DNA of 64,000 nt, from NCBI GenBank assembly GCA_014239155.1, contig JAAZZQ010000085.1, positions 124,001 through 188,000 of the forward strand. The letters are read 5' to 3'. Both the position numbers and the translations under genes were made by a program. The notes below the pieces were generated by a model. It was not told the DNA's origin and made no database searches. It saw only the letters and a list, made by a program, of their open reading frames with translations. This DNA comes from Lachnospiraceae bacterium (GTDB taxonomy: Bacteria > Bacillota > Clostridia > Lachnospirales > Lachnospiraceae). Of this stretch, positions 20,915 through 53,679 are shown piece after piece (positions within the stretch are counted from its first letter, which is position 1; each line of letters starts with the position of its first letter).

Positions 20915-21040
20915 GTAACAGTTTAGCCGGAACTTTGCACTGTGCTGCAAAGTCCGTGGAAAAGCGTAGTGGTTGAGATGCATCAAGCCACAGTACGTGG
21001 CTTGATGCTTGTAATAGGAAGCCGAAGGCTGAACTGTTAC
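20915..21040 (-). mobile_element. MITE-like element, type C
   Basis: 126 bases with terminal inverted repeats: GTAACAGTTTAGCC inward at the left and GTAACAGTTCAGCC inward at the right (13 of 14 match). Flanks AACGCAGC and AACGCAAT agree in 6 of 8 bases, like a decayed 8-base target duplication. Inside is a hairpin ACTTTGCAC/GTGCTGCAAAGT and a second one GCATCAAGCCAC/GTGGCTTGATGC. It is the reverse complement, with divergence, of the element at 50960-51110. It lies 28 bases before uppP and may carry or alter its promoter. Confidence 0.75.
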
Positions 21041-21068
21041 AACGCAATACAGATGCGATGGATTGGCT

Positions 21069-21905
21069 ATGTTAGAACTATTGAAGGCAGTATTGTTTGG
21101 CATTGTGGAGGGAATTACAGAGTGGCTTCCAGTCAGCAGTACGGGGCATATGATTATACTAGATGAGTTTATCAAACTTGACTGCACACCAGAATTTTTA
21201 GAGATGTTTCTGGTGGTCATTCAGCTTGGGGCAATTATGGCTGTCGTGATTCTGTTCTGGAACAAGATTTTTCCATTTCAGTTTAAGGACAAATCAAAAC
21301 CTGTGATTGAGATGGACAAAATTATGTTGTGGCTAAAAATTGTGGTGGCATGTATTCCAGCGGCGATTGTTGGTCTGTTGTTTGATGATGTGTTCGAGGC
21401 ATTGTTTTATCATGCAATGCCAGTGGCGTTAGCGTTAATTGTATTTGGTGTGGCGTTTATTGTGGTGGAGCGCAGAAATAAGACAAAGCGGGCGAGAGTT
21501 GGACGACTTGACGACATAACATTTCAGACAGCGTTTATTATTGGTATTTTTCAGTTAATCGCGGCAGTGTTTCCGGGAACTTCCCGCTCAGGGGCTACCA
21601 TTGTGGGTGCATTGCTTATTGGTGTTTCAAGAAGTGTGGCGGCGGAGTTTACTTTTTTTCTTGCCATTCCAGTTATGTTTGGCGCAAGCTTTCTAAAATT
21701 AGTGAAATTCGGTTTGACTTTTACAACACTTGAGGCAGGAGTGCTTATCATTGGAATGCTGGTTTCATTTTTTGTTTCTATTTTTGTGATTCAATTTTTA
21801 ATGGATTATATTAAAAAGCACGATTTTCAAGTATTTGGCTGGTATCGTATTGCACTTGGGGCAGTTGTAATTGCACTTGGAGCATGCGGAGTGATAACAG
21901 TATAA
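21069..21905 (+). CDS. uppP: Undecaprenyl-diphosphatase UppP (BacA)
   Basis: A 278-residue integral membrane protein with about eight membrane segments. It carries the two family motifs, EGITEWLPVSSTGH near the N-terminus and FPGTSRSGATIVGAL in the middle. It dephosphorylates undecaprenyl pyrophosphate to recycle the lipid carrier of wall synthesis and confers bacitracin tolerance. The start is ATG 21069; an upstream TTG (21063) has no support. No good ribosome site is visible, and the mobile element ends only 28 bases upstream, so expression may have been rewired. A strong terminator follows at once. Confidence 0.93.
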   Translation: MLELLKAVLFGIVEGITEWLPVSSTGHMIILDEFIKLDCTPEFLEMFLVVIQLGAIMAVVILFWNKIFPFQFKDKSKPVIEMDKIMLWLKIVVACIPAAIVGLLFDDVFEALFYHAMPVALALIVFGVAFIVVERRNKTKRARVGRLDDITFQTAFIIGIFQLIAAVFPGTSRSGATIVGALLIGVSRSVAAEFTFFLAIPVMFGASFLKLVKFGLTFTTLEAGVLIIGMLVSFFVSIFVIQFLMDYIKKHDFQVFGWYRIALGAVVIALGACGVITV

Positions 21906-21906
21906 T

Positions 21907-21942
21907 AAAAATTAAAAGAGGCAAAACGCCTCTTTTAATTTT
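21907..21942. terminator. Bidirectional terminator between uppP and the ArsR-like gene
   Basis: AAAATTAAAAGAGGC pairs perfectly over 15 bases with GCCTCTTTTAATTTT across AAAAC, giving a U run on either strand. It overlaps the stop codon of the convergent regulator gene. Confidence 0.9.
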
Positions 21943-22864
21943 CGCTATTTTCTTCGTCATAGTATGCTTTAATGCGGATTGCTTGATTGTGGTCGCCAAA
22001 ATCCTCTCCAAACAGCGTACAGCCGCCGCAGTTGGCAGTATCTTTTGGAACTTCAAGCTTAAAGGTAATATAACTGTTGTAGTCAATATTAAGTTCCTGT
22101 ATTGTCACGTCAGAAAGTCTGTTGGTGCCATCCATAAAACAGCCTTCACTATTGACGATGAGGGTTTTTAGCAATCCATACTGATTTAAGGTCTCAGGCC
22201 ACCATGCCGGTGAGACATAACCGCTGCGCGCGCCATAATCGCCGGGGCTAATCCACATACCGAGTGGAATTCCATTGATAGAAAAATAGATATCGGAAGG
22301 ATAGTCCTCGTTGGTGTTTGGGCATTCTGACGAGATTTCAAAGGAGATTTGAAGTTCTGTCAGTGTCTGTCCTGCTTGTAGATGGTTTGGCAGGTTATAC
22401 TCCACATAACCGCTGGCAAACCAGAGAATCCCTGCCTGAAAGCGTTCAGGAAAAGAAAATACCTTTGGGTCGTCGAAGGAGCCAATAATTTCCTTGCTGG
22501 TGGCAAGACCACAAGTTGGTGTGCCGTGGCAGGCAGTATAATATCCCACACGAATATCGTCTATATAGCAACGTCTTGACTCTTTTGTCGGGGCAAGGTC
22601 AATCATCAACCTATCATAACGAGGGCGGATAATCTTCATAGTGCCACGTTTGCCGGAGGTGATTTTGATTCGCACAAGCCCTGCTTCCTCCAGTTTCCCT
22701 ACATGCATGGATATCGCGCCGTTGGTAAGTCCTAGTGCTTCGGCAAGGTCATTCATGCTGAGGGAGTCATCTTCATAAATCATTTCCATAATTTTTACGC
22801 GCATAGGCGTGCTAAGTGCTTTAAAGACATTCTCGGCTTCACCGACAGAACGAAAGTACAGCAT
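21935..22864 (-). CDS. ArsR-type winged-helix regulator with large C-terminal ligand domain
   Basis: A 309-residue protein. Residues 8-90 are an ArsR-like winged helix (FKALSTPMRVKIMEMI, LTNGAISMHVGKLEEAGLV). The remaining 215 residues are beta-rich and Cys/Trp/Tyr-rich, far larger than a classical ArsR (about 100 residues). The usual metal-binding ELCVC motif is absent. The gene faces the carbohydrate ABC locus, so the C-terminal part may sense the sugar. AAGGGAG lies 12 bases before the ATG. The regulatory target is inferred from divergent orientation. Confidence 0.75.
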   Translation of the reverse strand: MLYFRSVGEAENVFKALSTPMRVKIMEMIYEDDSLSMNDLAEALGLTNGAISMHVGKLEEAGLVRIKITSGKRGTMKIIRPRYDRLMIDLAPTKESRRCYIDDIRVGYYTACHGTPTCGLATSKEIIGSFDDPKVFSFPERFQAGILWFASGYVEYNLPNHLQAGQTLTELQISFEISSECPNTNEDYPSDIYFSINGIPLGMWISPGDYGARSGYVSPAWWPETLNQYGLLKTLIVNSEGCFMDGTNRLSDVTIQELNIDYNSYITFKLEVPKDTANCGGCTLFGEDFGDHNQAIRIKAYYDEENSEN

Positions 22865-23063
22865 AATCTAATTTTCTCCCTTCTTTATGATTTGACAAAA
22901 GTTAAACTTATTGGGTGTTGTTCCTTCAGGGATTGGTAAGATAGTATATTTTATCTACATAAACTAATTCTATTTCTTTTAATGAGTATTAACTCTATTA
23001 TAGTGAATACTAAAATAAGTGTCAAGGACGAAATTTTTTAACAATTTCGGTAAGGTATTGTTA

Positions 23064-23196
23064 GTTACTGTTCACACAGGACTTAGCATTTACTGATAAG
23101 TCTGTACAAAAACATGCATATAGCAAGTAAAAATTCATTTGTGAAGTAAATTTTGTATAGATTTTTATCTGTTATTGGAACAGAATAAACAGTAAT
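23064..23196 (-). mobile_element. MITE-like element, type A (reverse orientation)
   Basis: 133 bases, the reverse complement of the copy at 44860-44989 with scattered changes. Ends are GTTACTGTTCA at the left and ATTACTGTTTA inward at the right. Flanks TATTGTTA (23056-23063) and TATTGTTG (23197-23204) agree in 7 of 8 bases, consistent with an 8-base target duplication. Confidence 0.75.
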
Positions 23197-23204
23197 TATT
23201 GTTG

Positions 23205-23323
23205 TTTTTATGGATTAGGAATGTGCATAACTGCGCATTTTGTAAGAATATGATTGAGAAATGAGGGGCGATATTTGAAGTTTTGTAATGTTGCTGTGCA
23301 AGCATTCAGGCAAAGTGGTTACT
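23205..23323 (-). repeat. Repeat element, type B (reverse orientation)
   Basis: About 120 bases whose first 80 are the reverse complement of 63440-63525, including ATGATTGAGAARTGAGG and the GGAAT...ATTCC hairpin. The right end is GTTACT. It abuts the type A element. The two copies have drifted more than type A or C copies. Confidence 0.55.
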
Positions 23324-23571
23324 AAAGATAATAATATTGCTGAAATATAGTAACAATTTTTAAAACAAAATATTATTTGTTAAAATATTTAGTGTTTGCT
23401 AAATTCATTTTGTCTATAATAAAATAAGAACATATGCTTGCAAAAAATCTGTTTTGGTAATAATGCATAAAAACACAAGTAAAAATTTGTTATATAGCAT
23501 AAAAGTTATTAAAGTTATGTAAATTCAATGATTATGAGTACCAATAGTGTCAATGTATATTAGATTTTATA

Positions 23572-23587
23572 TTGACATTTTTGTCAA
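23572..23587. promoter_or_regulatory. Operator-like palindrome TTGACA-TTTT-TGTCAA
   Basis: A perfect 6+4+6 inverted repeat whose right arm covers the -35 box of the transporter promoter. The position suits repression by the divergently encoded ArsR-type regulator. The similar TTGACAAAAGTTAA near 22893, next to the regulator start, could be a second half-conserved site. Confidence 0.5.
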
Positions 23588-23609
23588 AATAGCGTAAGGT
23601 TATTATATA
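23581..23609 (+). promoter_or_regulatory. Promoter of the carbohydrate ABC locus
   Basis: TTGTCA (23581-23586), a 17-base spacer and TATATA (23604-23609). The predicted transcript start near 23616 leaves a leader of about 97 bases. The -35 box lies inside the palindrome at 23572-23587. Confidence 0.55.
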
Positions 23610-23712
23610 AAGAAAAACTAAAACATTTAACTCATGAATAAAACAAATAAATCAGAGCTGAAATTGACTGATTGGCGAATGGTTTGTTTGTGATCAGAAA
23701 GGTCGGATCATC

Positions 23713-26697
23713 ATGAAAAGAGGAATTGCAAAGAAAGTCACGGCACTTGGCATGGCAGTCTGCATGGCTGCGGCTTCGGCTGTGACAGCATTTCCGGCAG
23801 TGCAGCTTCGCGCGCAGGAGCCGGAACGGACAGCACAGGGAACAGTGACAGAAAGTTATTCAAATGAGAGACTGGACAATGGTTACACTAGAGTAAGCGC
23901 TGGATACACACAGGCTGCCTACACTGGTGAGCCAATTCTGTACAAGATGAGCAGTGTGTACAAATCGGGAGATGCCAGTCTAACCAATGTGGACGGATAC
24001 GAAGGAGACGGTGATGCGCTTTCTATTCCAGCGAAGGGAACAGTGGAATTGGAAATTGATGTGCCGCAGTCAGCAGTTTACTACATGAGCTTTGACTATA
24101 TAGGAAACAGCGACTCAATTTTACCGGTCGAGGCGGGAATTATGATAAATGATGCGTATCCGTTTTATGAGATGCGACAGCAAAAGCTTGAGAGCCAATG
24201 GGCAGCGAAAGCGGACAAAGTATATGACAGCTATGGGAACGAAGTTGTCAGTATGCCAGACAAAGTGTATGACTGGCAGAACAAGTATGTGCAAGATTCC
24301 ACATACCGTTATACACAACCCCTTGGTATTGAGTTGGAGCAAGGAAAAAATAAGATTTCTATCGCATTAAACGAAGGCACCCTTTTGCTGGGGAACCTTT
24401 TCTTGACAGCAAAGCCACAGGTGCCACAGTATGCGGGCGGTGAGACGGCAGCAGGTGGCGGGTTTATTGAGATACAGGCGGAGGATTTCCTCTATAGAAA
24501 TGACTCAGCCATTCACGCAACCTGTGAGTTTGACCCAGATTTGTTTCCCTATCAGGCAGGAAACAGGGTTATGAACACAGTGGATGCGACTTCTTTTGGA
24601 AAAGGAGGGCAGGAGGTTACATACGGTTTTAACGTGCAGCAGGCAGGAAATTATTATATCGCATTTCACTATAGTCAGGGTGATAAGGCAGATTTTCCAG
24701 TGTTTATGAATGTAAAGATTGACGGGAAACTGCCAAACACAGCATTTCAAAATCATGCGTTTGCATATGAAAAGAAGTATGAAATGTACACGATGGTGGA
24801 TAGTGACAAGAAGAAAATCAGTGTGCCGCTTGAGGCGGGGCAACACACTATTTCAATGCAGATTAGCATGGAACCTATCCGGCAATCTTTGGAAATTATT
24901 GAGAAAATTATGGGACAGGTAAATGACTTGTCACTGGAAGTTACAAAGGTTGCAGGTACAAACAAAGATAAGTACAGAGACTTTTCTCTTGAGACATACA
25001 TTCCGGGAATTGGCGATACTATGCGGGGCTGGGCGGATGAACTCAACCAAGTGATGGAAGATGCGCGGGTTTACAATCCAAAGAAAAATAAAATTGCGGC
25101 GTACTCTTCTGTAAAGATTGCAGAAAATCAGCTTAGAAGTCTTGCAAAGAAGCCAGATGAACTGATTTACAGAATTGACGAGCTTGCGACAAGCACTTCC
25201 TCCGTCAATCAGCATCTGGCAAATTTAATTGACAGTCTTAACGGAAATGATTTTGCGCTGGATAGTATTTATTTATATCAGGAGGATGCAACAAAACAAC
25301 TCCCAAAGAACAAAAATATTTTTACCAAGATATGGCTTGGTATTGTGCGATTTTTTACCTCATTTGGCGATCAGGCATACTCCTCGACCAACACGAATCC
25401 AGAGCACTTGCAAGTGTCTGTAAATCGTTCCAGACAGCACCTTGAAATTATGCAACTTCTGATTAACGAGCAATTTACGCCGCAGACAGGTATTGAGGTA
25501 GACCTTTCGTTAATGCCAGACCAGACAAAACTTGTGCTTGCAAATGCGTCAGGGGACTCGCCAGATGTGGCGACAGGGGTAAACTATTCTATTCCGTTTG
25601 AGCTTGGTATTCGAGGCGCGCTAAAGGATTTGACGGAGTTTTCTGATTTTGCGGACGTGGCAGAGCGCTATAATGCGGGTTTAATTATGCCATATGTCAT
25701 TGGGGATAAAATTTTTGCATTGCCTGAGACAATGAATTTTCAGGTGATGTTCTATAGAAAAGATATCCTTGACAAGCTAGGGTTAGAGATTCCACAGACA
25801 CTTGAGGATGTTCAAGCAATGTTGCCTGACTTACAGATGAGAGGATTAAATTTCTATTACCCAACGGCGCGAACGGTTGGTATGAAGACGTTTCTCGACA
25901 CAACACCTATTTTGTTTCAAAGTGGCGGAAACCTGTACGACGGCGCAATTGACAAGGCAATATTGACGAGCGAGGAGAATGTTGAAGGCTTTACAACGTT
26001 GACCAATCTGTTTACCATCTACAATCTGCCAAAGGACGTGCCAAACTTTTACCAGCATTTTCGGAATGGGGATTACCCAATTGGTATTTCTGATTTTGGA
26101 AACTATAATATGATTTCCAATGCGGCGCCTGAGATTGATGGTTCGTGGGGGGTAGCGTTAATTCCGGGTGTGAAAAATGCGGACGGTAAGGTGATGCGCT
26201 ACTCGTCTGCGGGCGCGGAGGCGACATTTTTGTTTGAGTCCACGCCAGAGCGCGAGCAGAAGGCATGGGAGTTTGTGAAATGGTGGTCAAGCGCAGAGGT
26301 GCAGGCAGAGTTTGGACAGCGGCTTCAGATTACATATGGTGATGAGTATTACTGGAATACAGCAAATGCAGAGGCATTCGCACAGCTTCCCTGGGACAGT
26401 GACGATAAAGAGGTTATCTTAGAACAGCTTGAGTGGACATTGGAGGCGCCTAGAGCACTTGCAAGTTACATGGTGGAGCGTGAACTTTCTGATGCCTATA
26501 ATCTTGTAGTGCTTGGCGCAAAGAGTGCGTCTGTGCGAGAGTCACTCGACGATGCACAAAAGAGTGTAAAGCGAGAAACACAGCGCAAGCTCGAAGAGTT
26601 TGGCTACATGGAGAACGGCGAGATGGTGAAAGAGTACGAGGTACCAACTGTCGAGAAGGTACGTGAGATTATAGCAAAATCGAAGGAGGCGAAGTAA
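23713..26697 (+). CDS. Giant carbohydrate ABC binding protein with N-terminal sugar-binding-like domains
   Basis: A 994-residue exported protein, about twice the normal size. Residues 1-34 are a signal peptide without a lipobox. Two beta-sandwich regions follow (about 45-235 and 240-390); the second begins FIEIQAEDFLYRND and resembles CBM6/CBM35 modules. A helical linker (about 395-565) leads to a family 1 extracellular solute-binding domain (about 570-990). That domain shows QTGIEVDLSLMPDQ, YVIGDKIFALPETMNFQVM and a late WEFVKWWSSAEVQAEFG motif. Without a lipid anchor it may be held by the linker or by its permeases. It is the first gene of the locus and ends directly against the first permease. 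Confidence 0.82.
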   Translation: MKRGIAKKVTALGMAVCMAAASAVTAFPAVQLRAQEPERTAQGTVTESYSNERLDNGYTRVSAGYTQAAYTGEPILYKMSSVYKSGDASLTNVDGYEGDGDALSIPAKGTVELEIDVPQSAVYYMSFDYIGNSDSILPVEAGIMINDAYPFYEMRQQKLESQWAAKADKVYDSYGNEVVSMPDKVYDWQNKYVQDSTYRYTQPLGIELEQGKNKISIALNEGTLLLGNLFLTAKPQVPQYAGGETAAGGGFIEIQAEDFLYRNDSAIHATCEFDPDLFPYQAGNRVMNTVDATSFGKGGQEVTYGFNVQQAGNYYIAFHYSQGDKADFPVFMNVKIDGKLPNTAFQNHAFAYEKKYEMYTMVDSDKKKISVPLEAGQHTISMQISMEPIRQSLEIIEKIMGQVNDLSLEVTKVAGTNKDKYRDFSLETYIPGIGDTMRGWADELNQVMEDARVYNPKKNKIAAYSSVKIAENQLRSLAKKPDELIYRIDELATSTSSVNQHLANLIDSLNGNDFALDSIYLYQEDATKQLPKNKNIFTKIWLGIVRFFTSFGDQAYSSTNTNPEHLQVSVNRSRQHLEIMQLLINEQFTPQTGIEVDLSLMPDQTKLVLANASGDSPDVATGVNYSIPFELGIRGALKDLTEFSDFADVAERYNAGLIMPYVIGDKIFALPETMNFQVMFYRKDILDKLGLEIPQTLEDVQAMLPDLQMRGLNFYYPTARTVGMKTFLDTTPILFQSGGNLYDGAIDKAILTSEENVEGFTTLTNLFTIYNLPKDVPNFYQHFRNGDYPIGISDFGNYNMISNAAPEIDGSWGVALIPGVKNADGKVMRYSSAGAEATFLFESTPEREQKAWEFVKWWSSAEVQAEFGQRLQITYGDEYYWNTANAEAFAQLPWDSDDKEVILEQLEWTLEAPRALASYMVERELSDAYNLVVLGAKSASVRESLDDAQKSVKRETQRKLEEFGYMENGEMVKEYEVPTVEKVREIIAKSKEAK

Positions 26698-27615
26698 ATG
26701 GCTGCGAAAACAAAAAAGACCAAGGCAGCGCAAAGGGAACATGCAAACAAGGCTGCGTATGCATTCCTCGCGCCGTATGTGATTTTATTTACCATCTTTA
26801 TCATCATTCCGATGGTGGTGGCAATCGCGCTCTCCTTCACAAGCTATGACACAATACAGGCGCCTACATTCAAGGGCTTTTTAAACTATATTAATCTGTT
26901 GACTGCGGATGATATTTTTATGCAGAAGGTTTTGCCAAACACTATTATTTATGCGGTGATTGTGGGACCGGGCGGTTATGTTTTATCCTTTTTGGTTGCA
27001 TGGTGTTTGGCACAGCTTAGTTCTGTGCCACGGACAATACTGACTGTTATCTTTTACTCACCAAGTATGACTGGTGCAGTGTCCATGACAGTCCTGTGGA
27101 AAATTATTTTTTCCGGTGATCAGATGGGATATCTCAACAGTTTCCTAATGCGGCTTGGCGTTATTGACGCGCCGATTATCTGGCTGGTAGATGCGCGCTA
27201 TCTCTTGCCGATTATCATTATTGTCGCGTTGTGGTCCAGTATGGGCGTAGGATTTCTTGCAATGCTTGCTGGTATATTAAACGCGGATGAGGAAATCTAT
27301 GAGGCGGCGGCAATTGACGGTGTAAAGAATCGTTTTCAGGAGATGATTTATATCACAATTCCAACGATGAAACCGCAGATGCTGTTCGGTGCGGTTATGG
27401 CAATTGTAGGTGCTTTCCAGAATGGTGCGATTGGAGTACAGCTTTCTGGAACGAATCCAACGCCAAATTACGCAGGTCAGTTGATTGTAAACCATATTGA
27501 AGATTATGGTTTCTTAAGGTACGAGATGGGTTATGCCGCGGCGGTTTCTGTTGTGTTACTCTTGATGGTATTTGTATTCTCGAAATTCTTTGGACGACTG
27601 TTTAAAGAGGACTAA
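26698..27615 (+). CDS. Sugar ABC transporter permease (MalF/UgpA-like)
   Basis: A 305-residue BPD_transp_1 permease. A basic N-terminus precedes six membrane segments. The EAA loop reads [20 protein letters not shown], and [14 protein letters not shown] is typical of MalF-type subunits. It starts immediately after the TAA of the binding protein and pairs with the next permease. No ATPase gene is present in the locus, so a shared MsmX-type ATPase encoded elsewhere is expected. Confidence 0.9.
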
Positions 27616-27635
27616 AGAAGGAGGGGTATAAAAAG

Positions 27636-28508
27636 ATGGCTGGATATAAAGGATGTAATATCAATCCCAAAAAATTTGAGATTGGTCAATTAAAGATTAT
27701 ATTGATATTGATACCGCTTGCGGTTTTTATGGGAATTCCCATTGTGTTTATTGTCTGCCATGCGTTTAAGCCGATGGATGAACTTTTCGCCTTCCCTCCG
27801 CAGATTATTGTACACAAACCCACGCTGGATAATTTTGTAAAATTGTTTAAGGCGTCGGCAAACAGTAATATTCCTATGAGTCGTTATGTGTTTAACAGTC
27901 TGATTGTGACAGGTTCTGTGGTGCTATTGTCTATTCTGTTTTCCACAATGGCAGGCTTTGCACTGTCAAAGCTTCGCTTTAAGGGTAAGTATGCACTGTT
28001 AGAGATCAACAATACCGCACTTATGTTTGTGTCTGTGGCGGTTATGATTCCGCGTTATCTTGTGATTGATGCACTTGGCATGAAAGATACTTACTTTGCA
28101 CATATTTTACCACTCCTTGCGCTGCCGGTTGGACTCTTTTTGGTGAAGCAGTTTATTGATCAGATACCAGATGCGTTGTTAGATGCAGCGTACATGGATG
28201 GAGCATCGGATTTTAAGATATACCGCTCTATTATATTGCCGCTGGTGAAGCCAGCGATTGCGACGACAGCGATTCTGTCCTTCCAGCAAGTATGGGTGAA
28301 TGTGGAGAGCTCAAACTTCTATATTAATGATGAGAGCATGAAGACCTTGGCATTTTATCTAAATACGCTGGCAAATCAAAACAGCAATGTAGCTGGACAG
28401 GGAATTCAGGCAGCGGGTATTCTGATACAGTTTATTCCGAACCTTGCGATATTCTTAATCCTTCGGAAGAGCTTTATGAACACAATGGCTCATTCAGGCA
28501 TTAAATAG
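27636..28508 (+). CDS. Sugar ABC transporter permease (MalG/UgpE-like)
   Basis: A 290-residue partner permease with six membrane segments and the EAA loop DALLDAAYMDGASDFKIYR. GGAGGGG lies about 11 bases before the ATG. It ends 17 bases before the NHL-repeat gene. With the preceding permease it forms the membrane channel for the 994-residue binding protein. Confidence 0.9.
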   Translation: MAGYKGCNINPKKFEIGQLKIILILIPLAVFMGIPIVFIVCHAFKPMDELFAFPPQIIVHKPTLDNFVKLFKASANSNIPMSRYVFNSLIVTGSVVLLSILFSTMAGFALSKLRFKGKYALLEINNTALMFVSVAVMIPRYLVIDALGMKDTYFAHILPLLALPVGLFLVKQFIDQIPDALLDAAYMDGASDFKIYRSIILPLVKPAIATTAILSFQQVWVNVESSNFYINDESMKTLAFYLNTLANQNSNVAGQGIQAAGILIQFIPNLAIFLILRKSFMNTMAHSGIK

Positions 28509-28525
28509 CGGAATGGAGGATAACT

Positions 28526-30559: not shown

Positions 30560-30566
30560 GTTGAAC

Positions 30567-41169: not shown

Positions 41170-41243
41170 CGCAGCTAGGCAGAATCATAAAAAATGCAAC
41201 AGTAACGAGAAATCAAAAAACATTGAAGAAACTCTCAAAAAAT

Positions 41244-41274: not shown

Positions 41275-41532
41275 ATTTTATATCATTTTGCTCTTTTTAT
41301 TTTTGTTATCACAGTTTGTAACGTTTTTTGGAGGCTTTACTTTCGGCAGTTTGTTTGTAAGAACATAGAGGATATAAAATAATAGGTTATGGAATTTATG
41401 AATTAGAAAACGATGTTAAACTGGTTTATGAAATTATGGAGAGGAAATTAAAAGCAAATTAAATTTGTAGGGTATACCTAAATTTAAGAAGTGTAGAGAG
41501 AACAATAGGGAGGCAGGAAAGGGAACATACAT

Positions 41533-44857: not shown

Positions 44858-44859
44858 TT

Positions 44860-44989
44860 GTTACTGGCTTTGTTCCAGCAACAGATAAAAATCCATGTAA
44901 AATTTGCTTTGCATATGAATTTTTACTTGCTATATGCATGTTTTGGTATGGACTTAGGAGTAAGTGCTAAGTCCTGTGTGAACAGTAAC
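44860..44989 (+). mobile_element. MITE-like element, type A
   Basis: 130 bases from GTTACTGG to AACAGTAAC. Internal hairpins: AAAAATCCAT/ATGAATTTTT-like and GGACTTAG/CTAAGTCC. It starts 3 bases after a stop codon. No target duplication is visible at this copy. Confidence 0.7.
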
Positions 44990-45104
44990 TGTTTTATAGA
45001 AAATAATATAATCGTCTTGCGCAAATGTTGAAATTGGATTATTATTAAGTTTATACGAAAAGTGGCAACTAGATGCCGGAAACGGCTGCGAAAGAGGTTA
45101 TTGA

Positions 45105-46193
45105 ATGAATCGTAAGAAAAAGAGAGGTGGGACTGAGGTGGCATTTCGACCACAGACCATTATTGAAGCAAGGTACGATCTTGACAGAAGACAAAATGAT
45201 ATTCTTGACATACTGCTTGGGATCGTCGGTGAAGGTGATGATACAGAAGAGAATACGCGCTATGAGATTAATATTGGTGATGTGAAACATCTCTATAATC
45301 TGCATGATGAGTCCAATGCGTACAGCTATCTGCAAAAAGCAGTGAAAAAGTTTGAGGGGCTTGGATTTCGATTGAAAGAGGATGAGGGAACGGATATTTA
45401 TTATCCGTGGTTTAGTAAGATTAAATATCAGAAAAAGCGCGGTGACGAGAATCGAAGTAAGATTGTGCTAGATTTGCACCCAGAAGTAAAAGAGATGATT
45501 ATGTCCGCAAAGCAGGGAGCATACTACCGGATAGAATATCCGTTAAATCTTACCAAAAAGTATTCCAAGAGGCTTTATTATTTGTTGAAGGATAAGGAAA
45601 CCTTTAATGGCGGTGTCTTTGTTATTTCCTTTGATGAGCTTCGCAGAATGATGAAGATACCAGAGTCTTACGCCAACGGCAATGTCAAGCGTGAGATTCT
45701 TGACAAACCTTATCAGGAGATCAACGGAAATACGGATATTTCATTTGAGTATGAGTTGATTAATGAAAAGCTGCCGAGTGGGCAACACAGTATTAGCGCG
45801 GTTCGGTTTAAAGTGAAACGAATCCGGCGAAATACCACAGTAATTGAATATGAGACAATTGATAAGAATGGTGAGGCGATTCCCACAACTGCGGAGGAGC
45901 AGGAAGTTATTGACCTGCTTGACTGTAGTCCCAAGGAGGCAAAGGACATTTTGCGCACAGCAAAAGCAAATGGTCGTTCCCATGAGCAGATGATTGAGAT
46001 TCTGTCCTACACGCTAAAAAAGAAGGTTGATAACAAAGTTGGATATGCGCTCACAATTCTTAAGAATGGGTACAACGAGCCGTCGAAGCTCAGCAGTGAG
46101 AAAAAAAGTTCTTCATGGAGCAATGCAGAGCTTGACACTGCATATTCTCAAATGAATTTTGAAGATTTAGAAAGGCAGCTTTTGTCCAATTAA
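45105..46193 (+). CDS. Rep_3 (RepB/RepM)-type replication initiator
   Basis: A 362-residue protein of the plasmid initiator superfamily with two winged-helix domains. WH1 is about 18-130 (FRPQTIIEARYDLDRRQNDILDIL split, then SYLQKAVKKFEGLGFRL), WH2 about 135-235 (YPLNLTKKYSKRLYYLLKD, FVISFDELRRMMKIPESY). The C-terminal 110 residues are polar and unassigned. Such proteins bind iterons and start replication of theta plasmids. Here it lies among chromosomal genes without parA, partition genes or iteron repeats, so it is either a plasmid relic or a chromosomal paralogue with another role. AGAGG precedes the ATG by 7 bases. Confidence 0.8.
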   Translation: MNRKKKRGGTEVAFRPQTIIEARYDLDRRQNDILDILLGIVGEGDDTEENTRYEINIGDVKHLYNLHDESNAYSYLQKAVKKFEGLGFRLKEDEGTDIYYPWFSKIKYQKKRGDENRSKIVLDLHPEVKEMIMSAKQGAYYRIEYPLNLTKKYSKRLYYLLKDKETFNGGVFVISFDELRRMMKIPESYANGNVKREILDKPYQEINGNTDISFEYELINEKLPSGQHSISAVRFKVKRIRRNTTVIEYETIDKNGEAIPTTAEEQEVIDLLDCSPKEAKDILRTAKANGRSHEQMIEILSYTLKKKVDNKVGYALTILKNGYNEPSKLSSEKKSSSWSNAELDTAYSQMNFEDLERQLLSN

Positions 46194-46223
46194 AAGCTGT
46201 TAGGTTTGTGTTTGGAGGGGTTA

Positions 46224-46901: not shown

Positions 46902-46905
46902 AAAA

Positions 46906-48885
46906 GTGGAAGAAAACAACAAATATGAAACAAAAGAAAACGGTTCTGGCAGTGCACTTTATGGCACAGAACCACAGCCGCAGGAAGATAAGAACACATA
47001 TTCGTCTGTATATGGCACAAAGTTGGAGCCGCAGGAAACAGAGACCCCTGTACAACAGACAAAACCAGAAATAACACAGGAAATAGAGCCATTGTCACCG
47101 CCTGAATCAGTGACAGAATCAACAAAAACACAAGCGATACAGGAAATGGAACCATCTTTGGCGACTGTGTCGTTGACAAAGCCTATAGAGTCAGAAACTG
47201 TGCAGGAGCCTGTGTCATCGCAGCCTGTACAGTTGACAAAGCCTATGGAATCCGGATCTGTGCAAGAATCTGTACAGCCACAACAGCAAACATTTCAGCA
47301 ACAAGGTTTTACGGGAGGCGATGCAATGGGGTTTGGTCCAATGCAAGCCCCGCCACCAGTACAAGGAGCGCCGGCGTCAAAACCAAAGAAAAAGAAAACT
47401 GGACTGATAGCAGGTATTTTGTGTGCTGCCGCGGTAGTTATTGTAATTGGAGTTGGCGTGCTGCTTGCGAAGTCTCTTTTTGGGGATAATGCCAAGAATC
47501 AGTTGGCAAAAGGTCTTGCAAATATGGCCAAAGAGATGGCTGCCTATCAAAATTCGGTTGCTGAGGATATTGGACTTGTTGCGTTAAACAAACAAAAAAA
47601 GGAAAGACCAATGCACACCAATGTTGATTTGTCCTTTACGGACCCAGAGTCGTCAGGAACGTTCAGCAATATTAGTATGGAGATTGATGCAGTTATCGAC
47701 TATGGCAAGAAAATGGCAGAGTACGATTTAAGTCTTGGCACATATGGAATTGAAATGAGCATTGGAAAGATGATCGCAGCCGACAACACATTATATTTGA
47801 GTGCGCCATTCGCTCTTCAAGATCAGGTGTACAGTCTTAATTTGACTAATTTAGGCAAAGATTTTAATCAGTCTGCATGGTCGGAAATTGTGAATGAAAA
47901 GCTTCCCGAAGACTATTCTTTAACATTGTTTGAAGGTACAGATGTGACAGAAAGCATTAAAAAGGCTGGGGAGATGGGAGAGCTTTACGAGCTTTTTCAG
48001 AAACAAGACAAAGTGATTGCAGACGCCACAAAGATTGAGACATTAAAAGAAAAGAGAGAGTTTTCTTTTGATGGAGATTTTGCAGAGTATGGCGGTGTGC
48101 AGGTGACAGTGGACAAAGATGCATATAATCAAGCGATGGAAACGCTGTGTGATGATATTTTAAACAGCAATTATTACACAGAGTTTATGCAGGGATATGA
48201 GACGACATTCCGCGGGGATTTTGACGAGATAAAAGAGGAAATGGATCATATAATAGAACATATGTTTGGATTCCGCTTTGAGCAGGATATTGTGCTTGAC
48301 TTTTATCTGGATAAAAAAGGAAGAATTATTAATATTTCTACGCCGGAAGACATTGCAGTCTCAAGTGCGTATACCGATCTGGATTACCTTGCAGTTGACA
48401 TTGAGTTTTCTGGCACAGAACGCGCACTTGACTGTATTGAGGGCGGTGTATATTTGCAGGCAGGAGAGGAAATTCGGTATTTTGGAATTTCAAGAATGGC
48501 TGAGATAACAGAGGAAAGCTATGAAGAGGACCTAATGTTTATACTTCAAGATGATCGCAGCAATGATGAAATTACGTTTTGGTATACTGGCAGTTGGGGG
48601 TATGAAGACCAATCTTATGAAATGCAGATAGAGATGGAGGCGCCGGATAGCAGTTTAGGATTGACCGCAGAGGGTGCGTACACAGATATTGAAAAAGGTG
48701 AGCGCTACACCATTGAGATTGACAATGCTGCAATTACAGTTGACGGAGAAGACCTTCTGCTAATGACTGGGTCTGTAACTACAGAACCTGCAGAAAATGA
48801 AATTAAAGTGCCAGAAAATGCGACGAACATTTTAGAAATGAGTGAGGGAGACATTACCAATCTATTATATGGTATATTGTATTAA
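46906..48885 (+). CDS. Single-pass protein with repetitive cytosolic tail and large extracellular domain
   Basis: A 659-residue protein starting at GTG with AAAGGAG before it. Residues 1-165 are Gln/Pro/Glu-rich with imperfect repeats (TKPIESETVQEP, TKPMESGSVQES). One membrane segment is at about 166-190 (LIAGILCAAAVVIVIGVGVL). The rest is a beta-rich extracellular domain of about 460 residues. It resembles exported DUF6583-like proteins but I cannot name a function. It lies between the ATPase and the permease, so it may be a partner of that transporter. Confidence 0.65.
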   Translation: MEENNKYETKENGSGSALYGTEPQPQEDKNTYSSVYGTKLEPQETETPVQQTKPEITQEIEPLSPPESVTESTKTQAIQEMEPSLATVSLTKPIESETVQEPVSSQPVQLTKPMESGSVQESVQPQQQTFQQQGFTGGDAMGFGPMQAPPPVQGAPASKPKKKKTGLIAGILCAAAVVIVIGVGVLLAKSLFGDNAKNQLAKGLANMAKEMAAYQNSVAEDIGLVALNKQKKERPMHTNVDLSFTDPESSGTFSNISMEIDAVIDYGKKMAEYDLSLGTYGIEMSIGKMIAADNTLYLSAPFALQDQVYSLNLTNLGKDFNQSAWSEIVNEKLPEDYSLTLFEGTDVTESIKKAGEMGELYELFQKQDKVIADATKIETLKEKREFSFDGDFAEYGGVQVTVDKDAYNQAMETLCDDILNSNYYTEFMQGYETTFRGDFDEIKEEMDHIIEHMFGFRFEQDIVLDFYLDKKGRIINISTPEDIAVSSAYTDLDYLAVDIEFSGTERALDCIEGGVYLQAGEEIRYFGISRMAEITEESYEEDLMFILQDDRSNDEITFWYTGSWGYEDQSYEMQIEMEAPDSSLGLTAEGAYTDIEKGERYTIEIDNAAITVDGEDLLLMTGSVTTEPAENEIKVPENATNILEMSEGDITNLLYGILY

Positions 48886-48890
48886 AGTCT

Positions 48891-50987
48891 ATGAATGAGA
48901 ACAAAACAATTGTTTGGTTACAAATGGAGTATAAAAGGGCGGCTGCTATGCTGCCCTTAATTTTAAGGCGGGCAATGATACTGATGGCTGTATGTGTGAT
49001 AGCTGCTGGTATGATTGCTTTTTGCGTGAAACGAATATGGGCAAAAGATGATGACAGTCCAAAATTAAGAATTGGCTATACTGCGGAAGAAAATATGGTG
49101 ACAAATTTGGCAGTTTCCTATGTGCAGAATATAGAGTCTATTCAGAGCATTTGCCGTTTGGAAGCAGTCACTGAGCAGGAAGGAAAACAACTTTTGGAAA
49201 GCGGAGAGTTGTCGGCACTAATAGTTTTGCCACCAGATGTTATCAATGAAATTTTGTCTGGAAGCAATACACCTGCTACACTGTATCTTCCACAAAAAAG
49301 CGCTGGTGCATTATCGGACGGTGGATTGCGCGCGGTGGCAGAATTGTTGTTTGAAGAGCTTGTCACTGCTGAAATGGGGATACTTGGCACTGCACAGGCT
49401 GAGATTTATGCGGCGGAAGCAGTTTTTCAAGAGCTTTCCGCAGATGCTTTGCAATCGCTGTATGATGACATCAATCAATTTAATCTCGAAACAGTCACAG
49501 AACGGGAAAAACTGTTTCAGACAAAAATGCTTTCTCTTACAGAGAATGATACGTATGTAGTTTATTATGGGAGTGCATTTTTAACAGTATATGGATTGCT
49601 TGCCGGCTTATTTTTTGGTGTGTTTTGCAAGCGCAGTAGTTTGCAACAGACAATGGCAGCCAAGCGAATTGGCGTAGGATATGCGGTGCAGTTTGCGGCT
49701 AGGTGTCAGGCAGGGCTTTGGTTAATGTTTTTGACCTTACTGCTGCCATTTGGCTTGCTAATTGTTATTTTGCCAAGACTGGACAAGTTGCTAACAATTC
49801 ACCTGACTTTTTCTGGAATCATTGCACTATTTTTTATTCTGCTTTTTCTGACAGTGTATTTTATGATGATTTATCAGCTTGTGGAAAAGCGGGAGTCAGC
49901 GTTGGTGGTGATTGGGGTTTTGGCGGTGTTGCAGGCGTATTTATCAGGATGTTTTATCCCGTCTGTATTGTTGCCGCAGACAGTGGCATCAATTGGAAAA
50001 CTGCTTCCGGCTGCCATGCTCAAAAAGGGATTTACAATAATGCTGGCTAGTGAGACGCAAGGCTTTGGATATATTGTGATAGGACTTTTTAGCTGGGGAC
50101 TGTTGCTATTTTTAATAGCGCTTTGGTCTATGCAAAACGACGAGAAAAGAAGCGCCTGTGCATGTCAAAAAGTGATGGCAAGAAAAATTTCGGTGCCATC
50201 ACTGGGAATCGTGCTATTTCGGCGCTTTTTGCACAGAAAAAGTATTTGGCTTAGCTTGCTTTGCATTTTGGTGCTGTCTGTGTCCATTACAAAGATGGAA
50301 CAAAATGCACAGACACAGATTCGGGCAGCGGTTTATGACGCGTCAGGAGCGTTTGCTGAACGAATCTGTGCCTATAATGGTTTGGTGCAGTTTGAATTGT
50401 ATGAGAGTGATGAGAAAGTGCAGGAGGCGGTGCGAAAAGGCAAAGTGGAGTGCGGTTATATTCTTCCAATGACACTGACAGATAAGATGATAGCACAAAA
50501 GGCAAAAAGAGAGATTATTGTCTATCAAGATGCAGATGCAGTCGCAGTACCTGTTGTGAATGAGATTTTATTTGAACGAATTTTTGGACAAGTTTCATTT
50601 GCATGGTTTCTGGAATATGTCGCACAAAAAAATGCTGTCGAACAGACAAAAATGGATACAGAACATATGAAAGCTATTGTAACAGAGTGCTTTCATAAGG
50701 AACTCCAAGATGGAACAACTTTTCGATTTGAGGTGCAACGGCTGAATATGGAAAGTCGCGTGTCAGAAAACCAAGAGACAAAACGCACAATATATCCTTC
50801 TTATCTGGTGGCAGTGATTGCAGTGGTGTTGTGTACATTACAAGGCATTTTGCAGGTGATAATGGATTTTAAAGAACAAAATTTTTACAGGCAAAATCGG
50901 CTTGTAGTTTCGGCATTTACGCTGTTTTATCCAATATTGTTAGGGATTCTCTGCGCCTTGTTACAGTTCAGCCTTGCCGAACTGTAA
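48891..50987 (+). CDS. ABC-2-type permease, duplicated architecture, 3' end altered by an insertion
   Basis: A 698-residue protein with two ABC-2-like halves. Each has an N-terminal membrane helix (about 27-47, 425-440), an extracellular stretch and then helices. The first half has about six helices (225-415). The second has only about two (638-698) and stops at LLQFSLAEL. Those last nine codons lie inside a MITE-like element that begins at 50960. Removing the element and one 8-base flank copy gives a reading frame ending FFILINSY before TGA at 51141. Start ATG 48891 has no clear ribosome site and lies 5 bases after the previous stop. Confidence 0.75.
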   Translation: MNENKTIVWLQMEYKRAAAMLPLILRRAMILMAVCVIAAGMIAFCVKRIWAKDDDSPKLRIGYTAEENMVTNLAVSYVQNIESIQSICRLEAVTEQEGKQLLESGELSALIVLPPDVINEILSGSNTPATLYLPQKSAGALSDGGLRAVAELLFEELVTAEMGILGTAQAEIYAAEAVFQELSADALQSLYDDINQFNLETVTEREKLFQTKMLSLTENDTYVVYYGSAFLTVYGLLAGLFFGVFCKRSSLQQTMAAKRIGVGYAVQFAARCQAGLWLMFLTLLLPFGLLIVILPRLDKLLTIHLTFSGIIALFFILLFLTVYFMMIYQLVEKRESALVVIGVLAVLQAYLSGCFIPSVLLPQTVASIGKLLPAAMLKKGFTIMLASETQGFGYIVIGLFSWGLLLFLIALWSMQNDEKRSACACQKVMARKISVPSLGIVLFRRFLHRKSIWLSLLCILVLSVSITKMEQNAQTQIRAAVYDASGAFAERICAYNGLVQFELYESDEKVQEAVRKGKVECGYILPMTLTDKMIAQKAKREIIVYQDADAVAVPVVNEILFERIFGQVSFAWFLEYVAQKNAVEQTKMDTEHMKAIVTECFHKELQDGTTFRFEVQRLNMESRVSENQETKRTIYPSYLVAVIAVVLCTLQGILQVIMDFKEQNFYRQNRLVVSAFTLFYPILLGILCALLQFSLAEL

Positions 50988-51110
50988 CGCATCAAGCCAT
51001 GCAAAATCGTTTCGCGATGGCTTGATGCATCTCAACCACTACGTTTTCTTACGTGGCTAATATAAGCCATAATTTGCAGCGCAGTGCAAAGTCCTAGGCT
51101 GGACTGTAAC
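50960..51110 (+). mobile_element. MITE-like element, type C, in the permease 3' end
   Basis: 151 bases bounded by GTTACAGTTCAGCC and, inward from the right, GTTACAGTCCAGCC (13 of 14 match). Flanks TGCGCCTT (50952-50959) and TGCACCTT (51111-51118) match in 7 of 8 bases: a target-site duplication. Internal stems include GCATCAAGCCAT/ATGGCTTGATGC and TTTGCAGCGCAGTGCAAA. It supplies a new stop codon to the permease and lies 30 bases before the iscR -35 box. Confidence 0.85.
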
Positions 51111-51133
51111 TGCACCTTTTTCATTTTAATTAA

Positions 51134-51154
51134 TTCCTATTGACTTACTAGGAA
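51134..51154. promoter_or_regulatory. IscR-type operator candidate TTCCTA-N9-TAGGAA
   Basis: A 6-base inverted repeat overlapping the -35 box of iscR. Rrf2-family regulators bind such dyads and IscR represses its own operon, so autoregulation is likely. Confidence 0.55.
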
Positions 51155-51168
51155 ATAGATGCTATAAT
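51140..51168 (+). promoter_or_regulatory. Sigma-A promoter of the isc operon
   Basis: TTGACT (51140-51145), a 17-base spacer and TATAAT (51163-51168). The start near 51175 leaves a leader of about 50 bases. Confidence 0.85.
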
Positions 51169-51225
51169 GCAAGAATATTGATTGCTTGGTATAAGAGAGA
51201 TTTATAAGCGCAGGAGGAAAGTTTT

Positions 51226-51651
51226 ATGATTATATCAACCAAAGGGCGGTATGCACTGCGAATTATGCTGGATTTGGCAAATCATTCTGGGGAGAAGGTA
51301 AAACTGAAAGACATTGCTTCTAGGCAGGAGATATCTGAAAAATATATGGAGCAGATTATTGCTGTTTTAAACAAGGCAGGCTATGTGCGTAGCACGCGCG
51401 GCGCGCGGGGAGGCTATCAGTTGGTAAAGGCGCCCAAAGAGTATGCGGTTGGAATGATTTTGCGGCTGACAGAGGGTTCACTTGCGCCAGTGGAATGTCT
51501 TTCTGAAAATGCGCTTTCCTGCGCGCGCGAAAAGAAATGTGCGGCGGTTGAGTTGTACCAGCGCATTTATGATGCTGTGAATGATGTGATTGACACAACA
51601 ACATTGCAGGATTTGCTTGATATTGAACAGGAGAAAACAAAGCGTGAATAA
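51226..51651 (+). CDS. iscR: Rrf2-family iron-sulfur regulator IscR
   Basis: A 141-residue Rrf2 protein. The winged helix (about 1-60) contains YALRIMLDLA and IASRQEISEKYMEQII, followed by the STRGARGGYQL wing. Cys91, Cys99 and Cys105 (spacing C-x7-C-x5-C) match the 2Fe-2S ligands of IscR. It senses iron-sulfur status and represses isc genes. AGGAGG precedes the ATG. It is followed by iscS after 20 bases. Confidence 0.92.
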   Translation: MIISTKGRYALRIMLDLANHSGEKVKLKDIASRQEISEKYMEQIIAVLNKAGYVRSTRGARGGYQLVKAPKEYAVGMILRLTEGSLAPVECLSENALSCAREKKCAAVELYQRIYDAVNDVIDTTTLQDLLDIEQEKTKRE

Positions 51652-51671
51652 CGTCAAGGAGGAAAAAAGTA

Positions 51672-52856
51672 ATGATATATCTTGATAATGCAGCGACGAC
51701 AAAAATGTCTGAGGAAGTATTTGATGCGATGAAGCCATATTTTTGTGAACAGTATGCAAATCCGTCAGCGATTTATAGTTTTGCAGGCAGCGCTGCAAAG
51801 GCTGTAGATGAGGCGCGAAAGAAGACAGCAGCGCTTATTGGAGCACGGTCAGAGGAAATTTATTTTACTGCCGGGGGCAGTGAGTCTGACAACTGGGCAG
51901 TTAGAGCTGCGGCAGCGTTTGGCAAGGCAAAAGGGAAACACATTATCACTTCCACAATAGAACATCATGCGGTGTTGCATACTTGCCAATACCTTGAGAA
52001 ACAAGGCTATGAAGTGACGTATGTCAATGTGGATGCACATGGAAAAATAAAATTGGATGCGCTGGAAGCGGCGATTAGACCAGACACAATTCTTATTACT
52101 GTTATGGCGGCAAACAATGAGATTGGCACCATACAACCTCTAAAAGAAATTGGTGCGATTGCAAAGAAGAATCATATCCTTTTTCACACAGACGCAGTGC
52201 AGGCATATGGGCATATTCCACTCAATGTGGATGAGATGGGAATTGACTTGCTAAGTGCCAGCGGACATAAATTCAATGGACCTAAGGGAACAGGATTTCT
52301 ATATATCCGAAGAGGGGTGCGCATTGGCGCGTTAATACATGGCGGTGCGCAGGAACGTTCGCGGCGCGCAGGAACGCTGAACACGCCAAATATAGTAGGA
52401 ATGGGAGTTGCTGCGGAACTTGCAGCAAGGAGTCTTGACGAGCGCATGAAAAAAGAGGCGGCATTGCGAGATTATCTAATTGATAGGATATTAAAGGAAG
52501 TGCCATACAGCAGGTTGAATGGACATTTGACGGACAGGCTTCCCAACAATGCGAACTTTTGTTTTGAATTTATTGAAGGAGAGTCCTTATTGATATTGCT
52601 CGACCAGCAGGGAATTTGCGCGTCATCTGGTTCTGCCTGTACTTCTGGCTCGTTGGACCCGTCGCATGTTCTGTTGGCAATTGGGTTGCCACATGAGATT
52701 GCGCATGGCTCTTTAAGATTGACGCTCTCTGGGGAGACAACAAAAGAGGAAATTGATTTTACGGTGGAGGCAATCAAACAGATTGTGGAGAGACTTCGCG
52801 CAATGTCTCCATTGTATGAAGACAGCATAAAGAGAGGTGACATTAATGTACAGTGA
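51672..52856 (+). CDS. iscS: Cysteine desulfurase IscS/NifS
   Basis: A 394-residue fold-type I PLP enzyme. Seen: IYLDNAATTKM, SGGSE-like AGGSESDNWA, the HHAVLHTC region, the lysine in SASGHKFNGPKGTGFLY, and the mobile catalytic Cys in SSGSACTSGSLDPSHVL. It takes sulfur from cysteine for cluster assembly on IscU. AAGGAGGAAAA precedes the ATG. It overlaps iscU by 11 bases. Confidence 0.95.
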   Translation: MIYLDNAATTKMSEEVFDAMKPYFCEQYANPSAIYSFAGSAAKAVDEARKKTAALIGARSEEIYFTAGGSESDNWAVRAAAAFGKAKGKHIITSTIEHHAVLHTCQYLEKQGYEVTYVNVDAHGKIKLDALEAAIRPDTILITVMAANNEIGTIQPLKEIGAIAKKNHILFHTDAVQAYGHIPLNVDEMGIDLLSASGHKFNGPKGTGFLYIRRGVRIGALIHGGAQERSRRAGTLNTPNIVGMGVAAELAARSLDERMKKEAALRDYLIDRILKEVPYSRLNGHLTDRLPNNANFCFEFIEGESLLILLDQQGICASSGSACTSGSLDPSHVLLAIGLPHEIAHGSLRLTLSGETTKEEIDFTVEAIKQIVERLRAMSPLYEDSIKRGDINVQ

Positions 52857-53277
52857 AAAAGTAATGGACCATTTTAATAATCCGCGCAATGTGGGAACAA
52901 TTGAGAATGCAAGTGGCGTGGGAACTGTGGGAAATGCAAAGTGCGGCGATATTATGCGCATATATCTTGATATTGGTGATGATGGCGTAATACAGGAGGC
53001 AAAATTTAAGACATTTGGCTGTGGCGCCGCGGTGGCGACAAGCAGCATGGCGACAGAACTTGTGAAAGGCAAGACAGTACAACAGGCGTTAGAAGTCACT
53101 AACAAGGCAGTTATGGAGGCGCTTGACGGATTGCCGCCTGTGAAAGTACATTGCTCGCTTCTTGCGGAGGAGGCGATTCACGCAGCGCTCTGGGATTATG
53201 CGCAGAAAAATAATCTCACAATTGAAGGTTTAAAGAAGCCAGTTGATGATATAGAAGAAAAAGTGAAAGAGGAATAG
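52846..53277 (+). CDS. iscU: Iron-sulfur cluster scaffold IscU
   Basis: A 143-residue scaffold. The three cluster cysteines are in VGNAKCGDIM, TFGCGAAVATSS and VKVHCSLLAEEA. It starts MYSEKVMDHFNNPRNVG, as usual for NifU-like proteins. ATG 52846 follows AGAGAGGTGA; an upstream in-frame start would lie before that site. It ends the isc operon, with a terminator 8 bases after the stop. No hscA/hscB or ferredoxin follows, as is usual in Clostridia. Confidence 0.95.
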   Translation: MYSEKVMDHFNNPRNVGTIENASGVGTVGNAKCGDIMRIYLDIGDDGVIQEAKFKTFGCGAAVATSSMATELVKGKTVQQALEVTNKAVMEALDGLPPVKVHCSLLAEEAIHAALWDYAQKNNLTIEGLKKPVDDIEEKVKEE

Positions 53278-53284
53278 CCAAACA

Positions 53285-53314
53285 AAAAATCCGGTTTTTA
53301 CAGACCGGATTTTT
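53285..53314 (+). terminator. Terminator after iscU
   Basis: AAAAATCCGGT pairs perfectly with ACCGGATTTTT across an 8-base loop, ending in a T run. Confidence 0.88.
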
Positions 53315-53365
53315 ATGCGCATGGGCACCCAAAAGAATATTGTCAGCAGACGGTTGCCCAGCGCG

Positions 53366-53394
53366 CGAGTAGGGGAAAAATTTTCCCCTACCCG
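53366..53394. repeat. GAGTAGGGGAA palindrome after the isc operon
   Basis: CGAGTAGGGGAAAA pairs with TTTTCCCCTACCCG (one mismatch) over a single-base centre. It is the most symmetric member of the family also found at 15005, 18371 and 36727. A second stop signal here would be redundant with the terminator at 53285. Confidence 0.6.
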
Positions 53395-53405
53395 ATTCAT
53401 AATAA

Positions 53406-53538
53406 GTTACTGATCACTGCGTTCCAGTAACAGATAAAAATCCATGCAAAATCACCTTCGGTGATGGATTTTTACTTGAACGCGACACATTTTCGCACGG
53501 AATTAGCAGTGAATGCTAATTCCTGTCTGAACAGTAAC
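53406..53538 (+). mobile_element. MITE-like element, type A, tandem copy 1
   Basis: 133 bases from GTTACTG to CAGTAAC. CATAATAA stands on both sides (53398-53405 and 53539-53546), an exact 8-base flanking repeat. Internal hairpins ATCACC-TTCG-GGTGAT-like (in AAAAATCCAT...ATGGATTTTT) and GGAATTAGCA/TGCTAATTCC. Confidence 0.8.
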
Positions 53539-53546
53539 CATAATAA

Positions 53547-53679
53547 GTTACTGTTCACTGCGTTCCAGTAACAGATAAAAATCCATGCAAAATCACCTTC
53601 GGTGATGGATTTTTACTCGAACGCGACACGTTTTCGCACGGAATTAGCAGTGAATGCTAATTCCTGTCTGAACAATAAT
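53547..53679 (+). mobile_element. MITE-like element, type A, tandem copy 2
   Basis: Nearly identical to copy 1, starting exactly 141 bases after it, so the unit is the 133-base element plus the 8-base flank. It is followed by TATAATAA, one change from the flank. Either a repeat insertion at the same target or later duplication. Confidence 0.8.

Follow-up and report, generated by a model that had tools for sequence, protein, structure and literature searches.

A superfamily of miniature inverted-repeat elements with 8-bp target duplications in Lachnospiraceae, most likely moved by an IS66-family transposase

Introduction

What are the short repeats with GTTAC-type inverted ends that lie six times within one 64,000-nucleotide stretch of a Lachnospiraceae bacterium genome, and what put them there? 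The stretch (hereafter the window; G000:C8:124001-188000, a window coordinate being the C8 coordinate minus 124000) belongs to a genome, G000, of 4.57 Mb in 89 contigs, whose host probably lives in the gut. A sequence-only reading of the window had taken the repeats for a superfamily of miniature inverted-repeat transposable elements (MITEs) with 8-base target duplications, of a family it could not name. The elements have common inverted ends, 8-bp duplications and empty orthologous sites, and they are spread in many copies through several species of one genus. We infer that they are moved in trans by an IS66-family transposase, and put the probability of this reading at roughly 0.87; judged by ends, repeat length and transposase, the family left unnamed is probably IS66.

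Copies, ends and target duplications

Element boundaries were set by a covariance model (R1), built from 29 elements and applied without regard to flanks; on the + strand an element is read with its hairpin-1 end first. R1 calls the same six places as the sequence-only reading, and everything described there is present: the ends are of GTWACWGTTYA type, one of them lies close to a GGAMTTxGCA hairpin, and a larger hairpin comes in addition. In the whole genome the model finds at least 138 copies, a count that may be a floor because scoring covered 150 of the 3341 first-look candidates. This corresponds to about one copy per 33 kb; the density of one per 10 kb or higher suggested earlier holds for the window, with six copies in 64 kb, which is a local excess. 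BLAST of three window stretches against the genome gave 43, 46 and 26 matches (overlapping sets), and the end motif GTWACWGTTCA occurs 202 times against 26 for its reversed control, so the ends are not due to chance. Among elements from the own-genome DNA examined, 68 of 71 fall into one similarity cluster, as expected of a single superfamily. Five genomes of the genus hold some 357 copies (138, 51, 107, 41 and 20), and MITEs of this family (family A) are present in 23 of 36 genus genomes searched.

The elements are mostly 125-170 bp long (commonest lengths 137, 136 and 133 bp), too short for a transposase, and are bounded by inverted ends of 11-12 bp (GTWACWGTTCAS). Their 8-bp flanks are identical in 44 of the 138 copies and agree at six or more of eight positions in 89, compared with 0.05% and 1.8%, respectively, when flanks are paired with shuffled partners. 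Exact matches at 7 bp and 9 bp were seen in one and two copies; the duplication is therefore 8 bp. When elements were called by their terminal inverted repeats (TIRs) only, 27 of 56 had exact 8-bp repeats, and flanks alike at six or more positions are also common in the other species (35 of the 51 found in G010, 46/59 in G031, 28/33 in G033 and 7 of 11 examined in G007). Exact-repeat targets are 75% A+T, as against 60% for the DNA examined, and 133 of the 138 copies are intergenic by a rough open reading frame (ORF) call, though about 83% of that DNA was called coding.

Several arrangements elsewhere bear on the same system. At G000:C73:3296-3568 one element abuts the end of another and its 8-bp repeat ACTGTTAC is the other's terminal repeat: this is an insertion into a sister element. 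Two further sequences have GTWACAGTTCA ends, a 187-bp element with an unrelated interior and exact repeats ACCAATAT (G000:C8:276906-277092) and a mini-palindrome of 42 bp whose repeats agree at 7/8 positions (G000:C11:54029-54070); both may be further passengers of this system.

Empty sites in relatives

IscS encoded in the window matches its counterpart in L143, a Lachnospiraceae bacterium metagenome-assembled genome (MAG), at 100% identity and the one in Lachnospiraceae bacterium IMSAGC_011 (L144) at 90%; the host is therefore a Lachnospiraceae bacterium. At 50960 the window element stands between TGCGCCTT and TGCACCTT, and L144 has TGCGCTTT once, with 7/8 bases alike. At the 20915 place, L287 (genome G022) has the spacing of a single 8-bp unit, with 4/8 bases alike between flanks that are 84-85% identical. 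The 44860 element and the 53406 pair are also missing from L144, where no clean 8-bp unit is seen. Together with the duplications found genome-wide, these empty sites bear out the interpretation of the repeats as MITEs.

A candidate transposase in sister species

An element bearing both GTTACTGTTCA-like ends and a transposase, which the earlier reading had proposed as a check, exists in sister species and is lacking in the own genome. Three IS66-family elements of 2.25-2.32 kb have GTTACTGTTCAC or GTTACTTTTCAC at their ends, and their 8-bp repeats are exact (Table 1). A motif-free scan of 30 IS66 loci, which required identical 8-bp flanks and inverted ends alike at 10/14 or better lying at least 700 bp apart, gave L231 and L245, both with GTTACT.TTCAC ends, along with weaker, chance-like pairs (10/14) in L224 and L234. 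A motif-guided scan refound these two elements and added L275, and a third scan of 22 loci for GT...AC ends only returned the same three and none in the other 19. All three proteins match DDE_Tnp_IS66 (PF03050) above its cut-off (3.9e-25, 2.5e-22 and 3.1e-13). Their large ORFs encode 571, 580 and 573 aa; L231 and L245 have an extra ORF of 89 or 96 aa that matches no family, and L275 has no second same-strand ORF of at least 80 aa outside the large one.

On this reading, an IS66-family transposase acting in trans would bind the element ends and join the element to target DNA, AT-rich and mostly intergenic, that has been cut with a stagger; repair of the gaps would then leave the 8-bp duplication. 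The orientation preference described below may stem from insertion coupled to replication, selection having perhaps acted later.

Other candidates were less convincing. IS66-like remnants lie between GTTAC-type ends about 0.44 and 0.98 kb apart (L240/L260 in G034:C260, and L261 in G016:C58), a spacing that fits internally deleted elements, but their flanks do not match. Classical IS66 loci of the genus (e.g. L223-L226) have no pair of GTTAC-type ends with matching flanks, and in an order-wide sample of 344 genomes the transposase was detected in three at E 1e-60, none of them with ends and matching flanks. The segment G000:C11:52480-54070, considered as an autonomous element, proved to be merely a gene between chance matches and the 42-bp mini-palindrome. 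A motif-guided scan of 1.78 Mb (at most two mismatches in each end, repeats alike at 7/8 or better) gave four pairs spaced by more than 300 bp. L105 and L048 account for two of these (314 and 319 bp); the remaining two, both in L185, have two mismatches at each end and were taken for chance.

Internal structure and its origin

Starting at the hairpin-1 end, each element has a terminal repeat and then hairpin 1 (GGACTTTGCA, GGAATTAGCA or GGTATTTGCA plus complement); a spacer separates these from hairpin 2, which is larger and contains an inner stem, and the second terminal repeat closes the element. An alignment of 29 of 36 elements of 124-138 bp, with the longer elements (about 150-170 bp) outside it, contains 37 pairs in four helices, 95.3% of which are standard; helix 1, formed by the terminal repeats, is 93.1% paired (alignment A3). 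The covariation score, calculated on the same alignment from which the four-helix structure was derived, is 0.371; shuffles score 0.158 (sd 0.010), and slid partners 0.004-0.060. In 17 pairs both sides have changed, which is weakly above the average of 14.4 in shuffles, 26 of 500 of them attaining 17. The four-helix build is kept while the letters change. Single-strand folding of five window copies (53547 left out) is much stronger than in shuffles for three (z -7.6, -6.4 and -6.9) and weak for 23064 (z -2.6) and 44860 (z -1.3).

Template-switch correction of imperfect palindromes is a mutation mechanism that could produce covarying hairpins with no selection for structure, and we give this account somewhat less than even odds. 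In its favour, the terminal repeats, too, change on both arms together (columns 3/141 and 6/138). No observation against it is decisive: 25 copies with flanks alike at five or fewer positions keep 85% Watson-Crick pairs in the inner hairpins and 69% in the terminal helix, a difference that truncated ends could also cause.

Selection at the RNA level was sought in the ratio of G-U to A-C mismatches. Among 78 distinct own-genome elements of 128-140 bp, G-U:A-C is 80:44 within inner hairpins, as against 51:48 for the terminal helix; in G010 it is 17:4 in the inner hairpins, but 26:8 in the terminal helix that serves as control. Because the G010 test, set out in advance, called for an inner-hairpin excess without a terminal-helix excess, its control failed. 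Rare mismatches show no excess in the own genome (18:18) and stand at 11:1 in G010. With the control skewed and the own-genome rare mismatches even, the argument for RNA-level selection was dropped.

Orientation relative to replication

The unexpected feature of the family, and the part most worth pursuing, is its orientation. With the leading strand read from GC skew taken within 3 kb (a measure that genes affect as well) rather than from a mapped origin, and with array neighbours, to which within-genome filtering was limited, counted once, the hairpin-1 end comes first along the leading strand in 198 elements and the opposite holds for 78 (five species, about 72%, p 3e-13). The counts are 88:42 in G000, 37:10 in G010, 42:14 in G031 and 25:7 in G033; G007 alone shows no bias (6:5). 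Species added after the bias had been noticed give 73:26, and the bias is seen in every length class (30:10, 49:23, 70:27 and 49:18). Among 274 elements with usable flanks, three cross-genome pairs are alike on both sides; insertions in different genomes are therefore nearly all independent.

Co-orientation with transcription was the first reading of these data, as between genes of one direction the elements lie with rather than against the genes in 59:33 cases in the own genome and 24:5 in G010, the latter a second test set out in advance. Splitting the sites by context pointed instead to GC skew and replication. At divergent and convergent sites, where the flanking genes are not co-oriented, the leading-strand orientation prevails 52:25 (p 0.003), with 16:7 (p 0.09) in the added species; wider skew regions (own genome and G010, arrays kept) give 42:18 at non-co-oriented sites, and lagging-strand tandem genes (7:4) are too few.

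The bias might also result from selection against one orientation rather than from insertion, an account against which we would bet, if not heavily. Copies with exact repeats, presumably the younger ones, are less biased (68:37, 65%) than the rest (130:41, 76%; p 0.06), and selection may therefore contribute; yet the bias is already present in the exact-repeat copies (p 0.003) and also at the divergent or convergent sites. A more specific proposal is that IS66 transposition is fork-coupled, using the element or target as fork-associated, perhaps single-stranded, DNA with the conserved end hairpin telling the ends apart; leading-strand bias would follow, and the hairpins would be selected parts of the substrate. 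We regard this as speculative and unlikely. A beta-clamp-like QxxLF motif occurs in three of six aligned transposases and is too weak to use as evidence of clamp contact.

Weighing the assignment to IS66

Some observations count against the replication-linked orientation and others against the reading of these elements as IS66-mobilised MITEs. As to orientation, in addition to the lower bias of the exact-repeat copies, four of the six window copies are in the minority orientation, 2/6 being with the majority. As to mobilisation by IS66, 49 of the 138 copies have flanks alike at five or fewer positions. The three candidate proteins score 167.8, 150.7 and 130.0, under the NCBIfam IS66 cut-off (NF033517, 180). 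No IS66 transposase or remnant was detected in the own genome; the enzyme may since have disappeared, or its gene may have been left out of the draft assembly as a repeat. Since this genome has no detectable IS66 transposase, movement in trans is deduced from ends and repeat length. An IS66-like protein is present in 13 of 38 genus genomes, many as fragments, compared with MITEs in 23 of 36. Homology between MITEs and insertion sequences (ISs) is limited to about 12 terminal bases, and further elements have the ends and no matching flanks, among them one in another genus of the family (L283) with both ends. Finally, the transposase search was aimed, among families, at IS66 alone.

Other IS families also make 8-bp repeats, and the MITEs could have been moved by a transposase unrelated to IS66 whose ends are similar and whose stagger is 8 bp (for example of the IS256, IS6, ISL3 or IS1595 type). 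The lack of an IS66 protein in the own genome and the aim of the search leave room for such an enzyme, but three IS66-type elements of the genus carry these very ends with exact repeats, and ISDge4, a member of IS66, has similar ends; we consider it improbable. That the elements are instead a conserved structured RNA or regulatory repeat, as their intergenic position and the compensatory changes in the inner hairpins might suggest, is hardly tenable: exact 8-bp flanking repeats and empty sites refute it as the sole explanation, no Rfam match reaches the gathering threshold within the window, and the G-U versus A-C asymmetry decides nothing.

The window copies and their surroundings

The coordinates of the window copies, whose previously quoted flanks are correct in all four cases, and the three IS66 elements are collected in Table 1.

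Table 1. Window elements with their target copies, and IS66-family elements of sister species
Feature	Location	Strand	Length (bp)	Details
MITE copy	20915..21040	+	126	R1 model; flanks AACGCAGC/AACGCAAT; empty site in L287
Target copies of 20915 element	left 20907..20914; right 21041-21048	.	8	AACGCAGC; AACGCAAT; 6/8 alike
MITE copy	23064..23196	+	133	R1 model; flanks TATTGTTA/TATTGTTG
Target copies of 23064 element	left 23056..23063; right 23197-23204	.	8	TATTGTTA; TATTGTTG; 7/8 alike
MITE copy	44860..44989	-	130	R1 model; orthologous place in L144 without element
MITE copy	50960..51110	-	151	R1 model; empty site in L144; same insertion in L115 (G016)
Target copies of 50960 element	left 50952..50959; right 51111-51118	.	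8	TGCGCCTT; TGCACCTT; 7/8 alike
MITE copy, first of tandem pair	53406..53538	-	133	R1 model; flanks CATAATAA/CATAATAA, 8/8
MITE copy, second of tandem pair	53547..53679	-	133	R1 model; flanks CATAATAA/TATAATAA, 7/8
Target copies at tandem pair	53398..53405; 53539-53546; 53680-53687	.	8	CATAATAA; CATAATAA; TATAATAA; flank comparison
IS66-family element	L231 (again as L254)		2251	inverted ends 12/14; 8-bp repeat GCTGCTTT, exact
IS66-family element	L245 (again as L253)		2323	inverted ends 14/14; 8-bp repeat TATCAATA, exact
IS66-family element	L275		2304	20-bp perfect inverted repeat; 8-bp repeat AAGAATAG, exact

The 44860 copy has no recognisable target repeat, its flanks CAATAGTT/TGTTTTAT agreeing at 2/8 positions. 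Around the 53406/53547 pair, L143 is 99.3-99.9% identical to the window and has a single copy, the difference of 141 bp being one element plus 8 bp; tandem duplication or recombination between copies would each account for this. A row of three elements with 8-bp spacers and one orientation in G010 (G010:C1:890586-891009) resembles the tandem pair. An L143 contig, CASJPF010000007.1, starts at or within the place of element 50960, and such repeats may break draft assemblies.

An ORF for an ABC-2-type transporter (48891-50987) enters the 50960 element, from which its last codons and stop (50960-50987) come, and its orthologue in L144 ends in a different tail, at the empty site. At 45105-46193 the window encodes a Rep3-type replication initiator protein (PF01051, PF21205), which is plasmid-type, in a neighbourhood that aligns in L144-L149.

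Comparison with known systems

IS66 elements are widespread. According to the available part of a 2026 paper, their transposition mechanisms 'remain insufficiently characterized' (PMC12898284), and the copies in five genomes, with target repeats at all stages of decay, offer a natural record of where and in which orientation the elements inserted. Given the replication-linked orientation, the hypothesis of fork coupling can be tested on a minimal element of about 130 bp. For annotation, the family also accounts for many of the repeats between genes in these gut bacteria, and some breaks in assemblies may be due to it.

The accessible portion of the same source describes IS66 elements as typically having two ORFs, or one in the ISBst12 group, and includes ISDge4, an ISBst12-type IS66 element that transposes in Deinococcus and has ends GTGACTACTCAGCA/GTAACTGCTCAGCA and an 8-bp repeat (PMC12898284). 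The sister-species elements resemble ISDge4, as far as that portion describes it, in GTAACTGCTCAGCA-like ends, a likeness judged by eye against this one member of the group, in the 8-bp target repeat and in the IS66 transposase. They differ in coding for 571-580 aa, with an extra 89-/96-aa ORF in two of three, where ISDge4 has one ORF of 449 aa; the window elements, unlike ISDge4, have no genes.

As described in the consulted parts of two sources, QMITE2 (PMC10969869) and MITEPsy1 (PMC3189936) are, like the window elements, short, geneless and TIR-bounded, but their ends and repeat lengths differ (7-9 bp for QMITE2, 4 bp for MITEPsy1). The traits reviewed there for bacterial MITEs, namely targets that are AT-rich and lie between genes, transcripts that form hairpins, and the decay of direct repeats over time, are likenesses to the family described here (PMC10969869, PMC3189936). 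Titles and abstracts on IS66 MITEs, Lachnospiraceae MITEs and the orientation of transposons or MITEs relative to replication, with most subscription papers outside coverage, yielded no description of this family. Because none was found and replication-linked transposon orientation is already known, we class the elements as a new family of a known kind.

Replication-oriented transposons include, in the part of the source at hand, Tn7 via TnsE, IS200/IS605 and several IS families with beta-clamp contact (PMC5371812). While transposase or targeting proteins are known for these, and the carriers here are geneless, with IS66 presumed and clamp contact unsupported, the orientation of Tn7, IS200/IS605, the clamp-contacting IS families and the window family alike correlates with the direction of replication.

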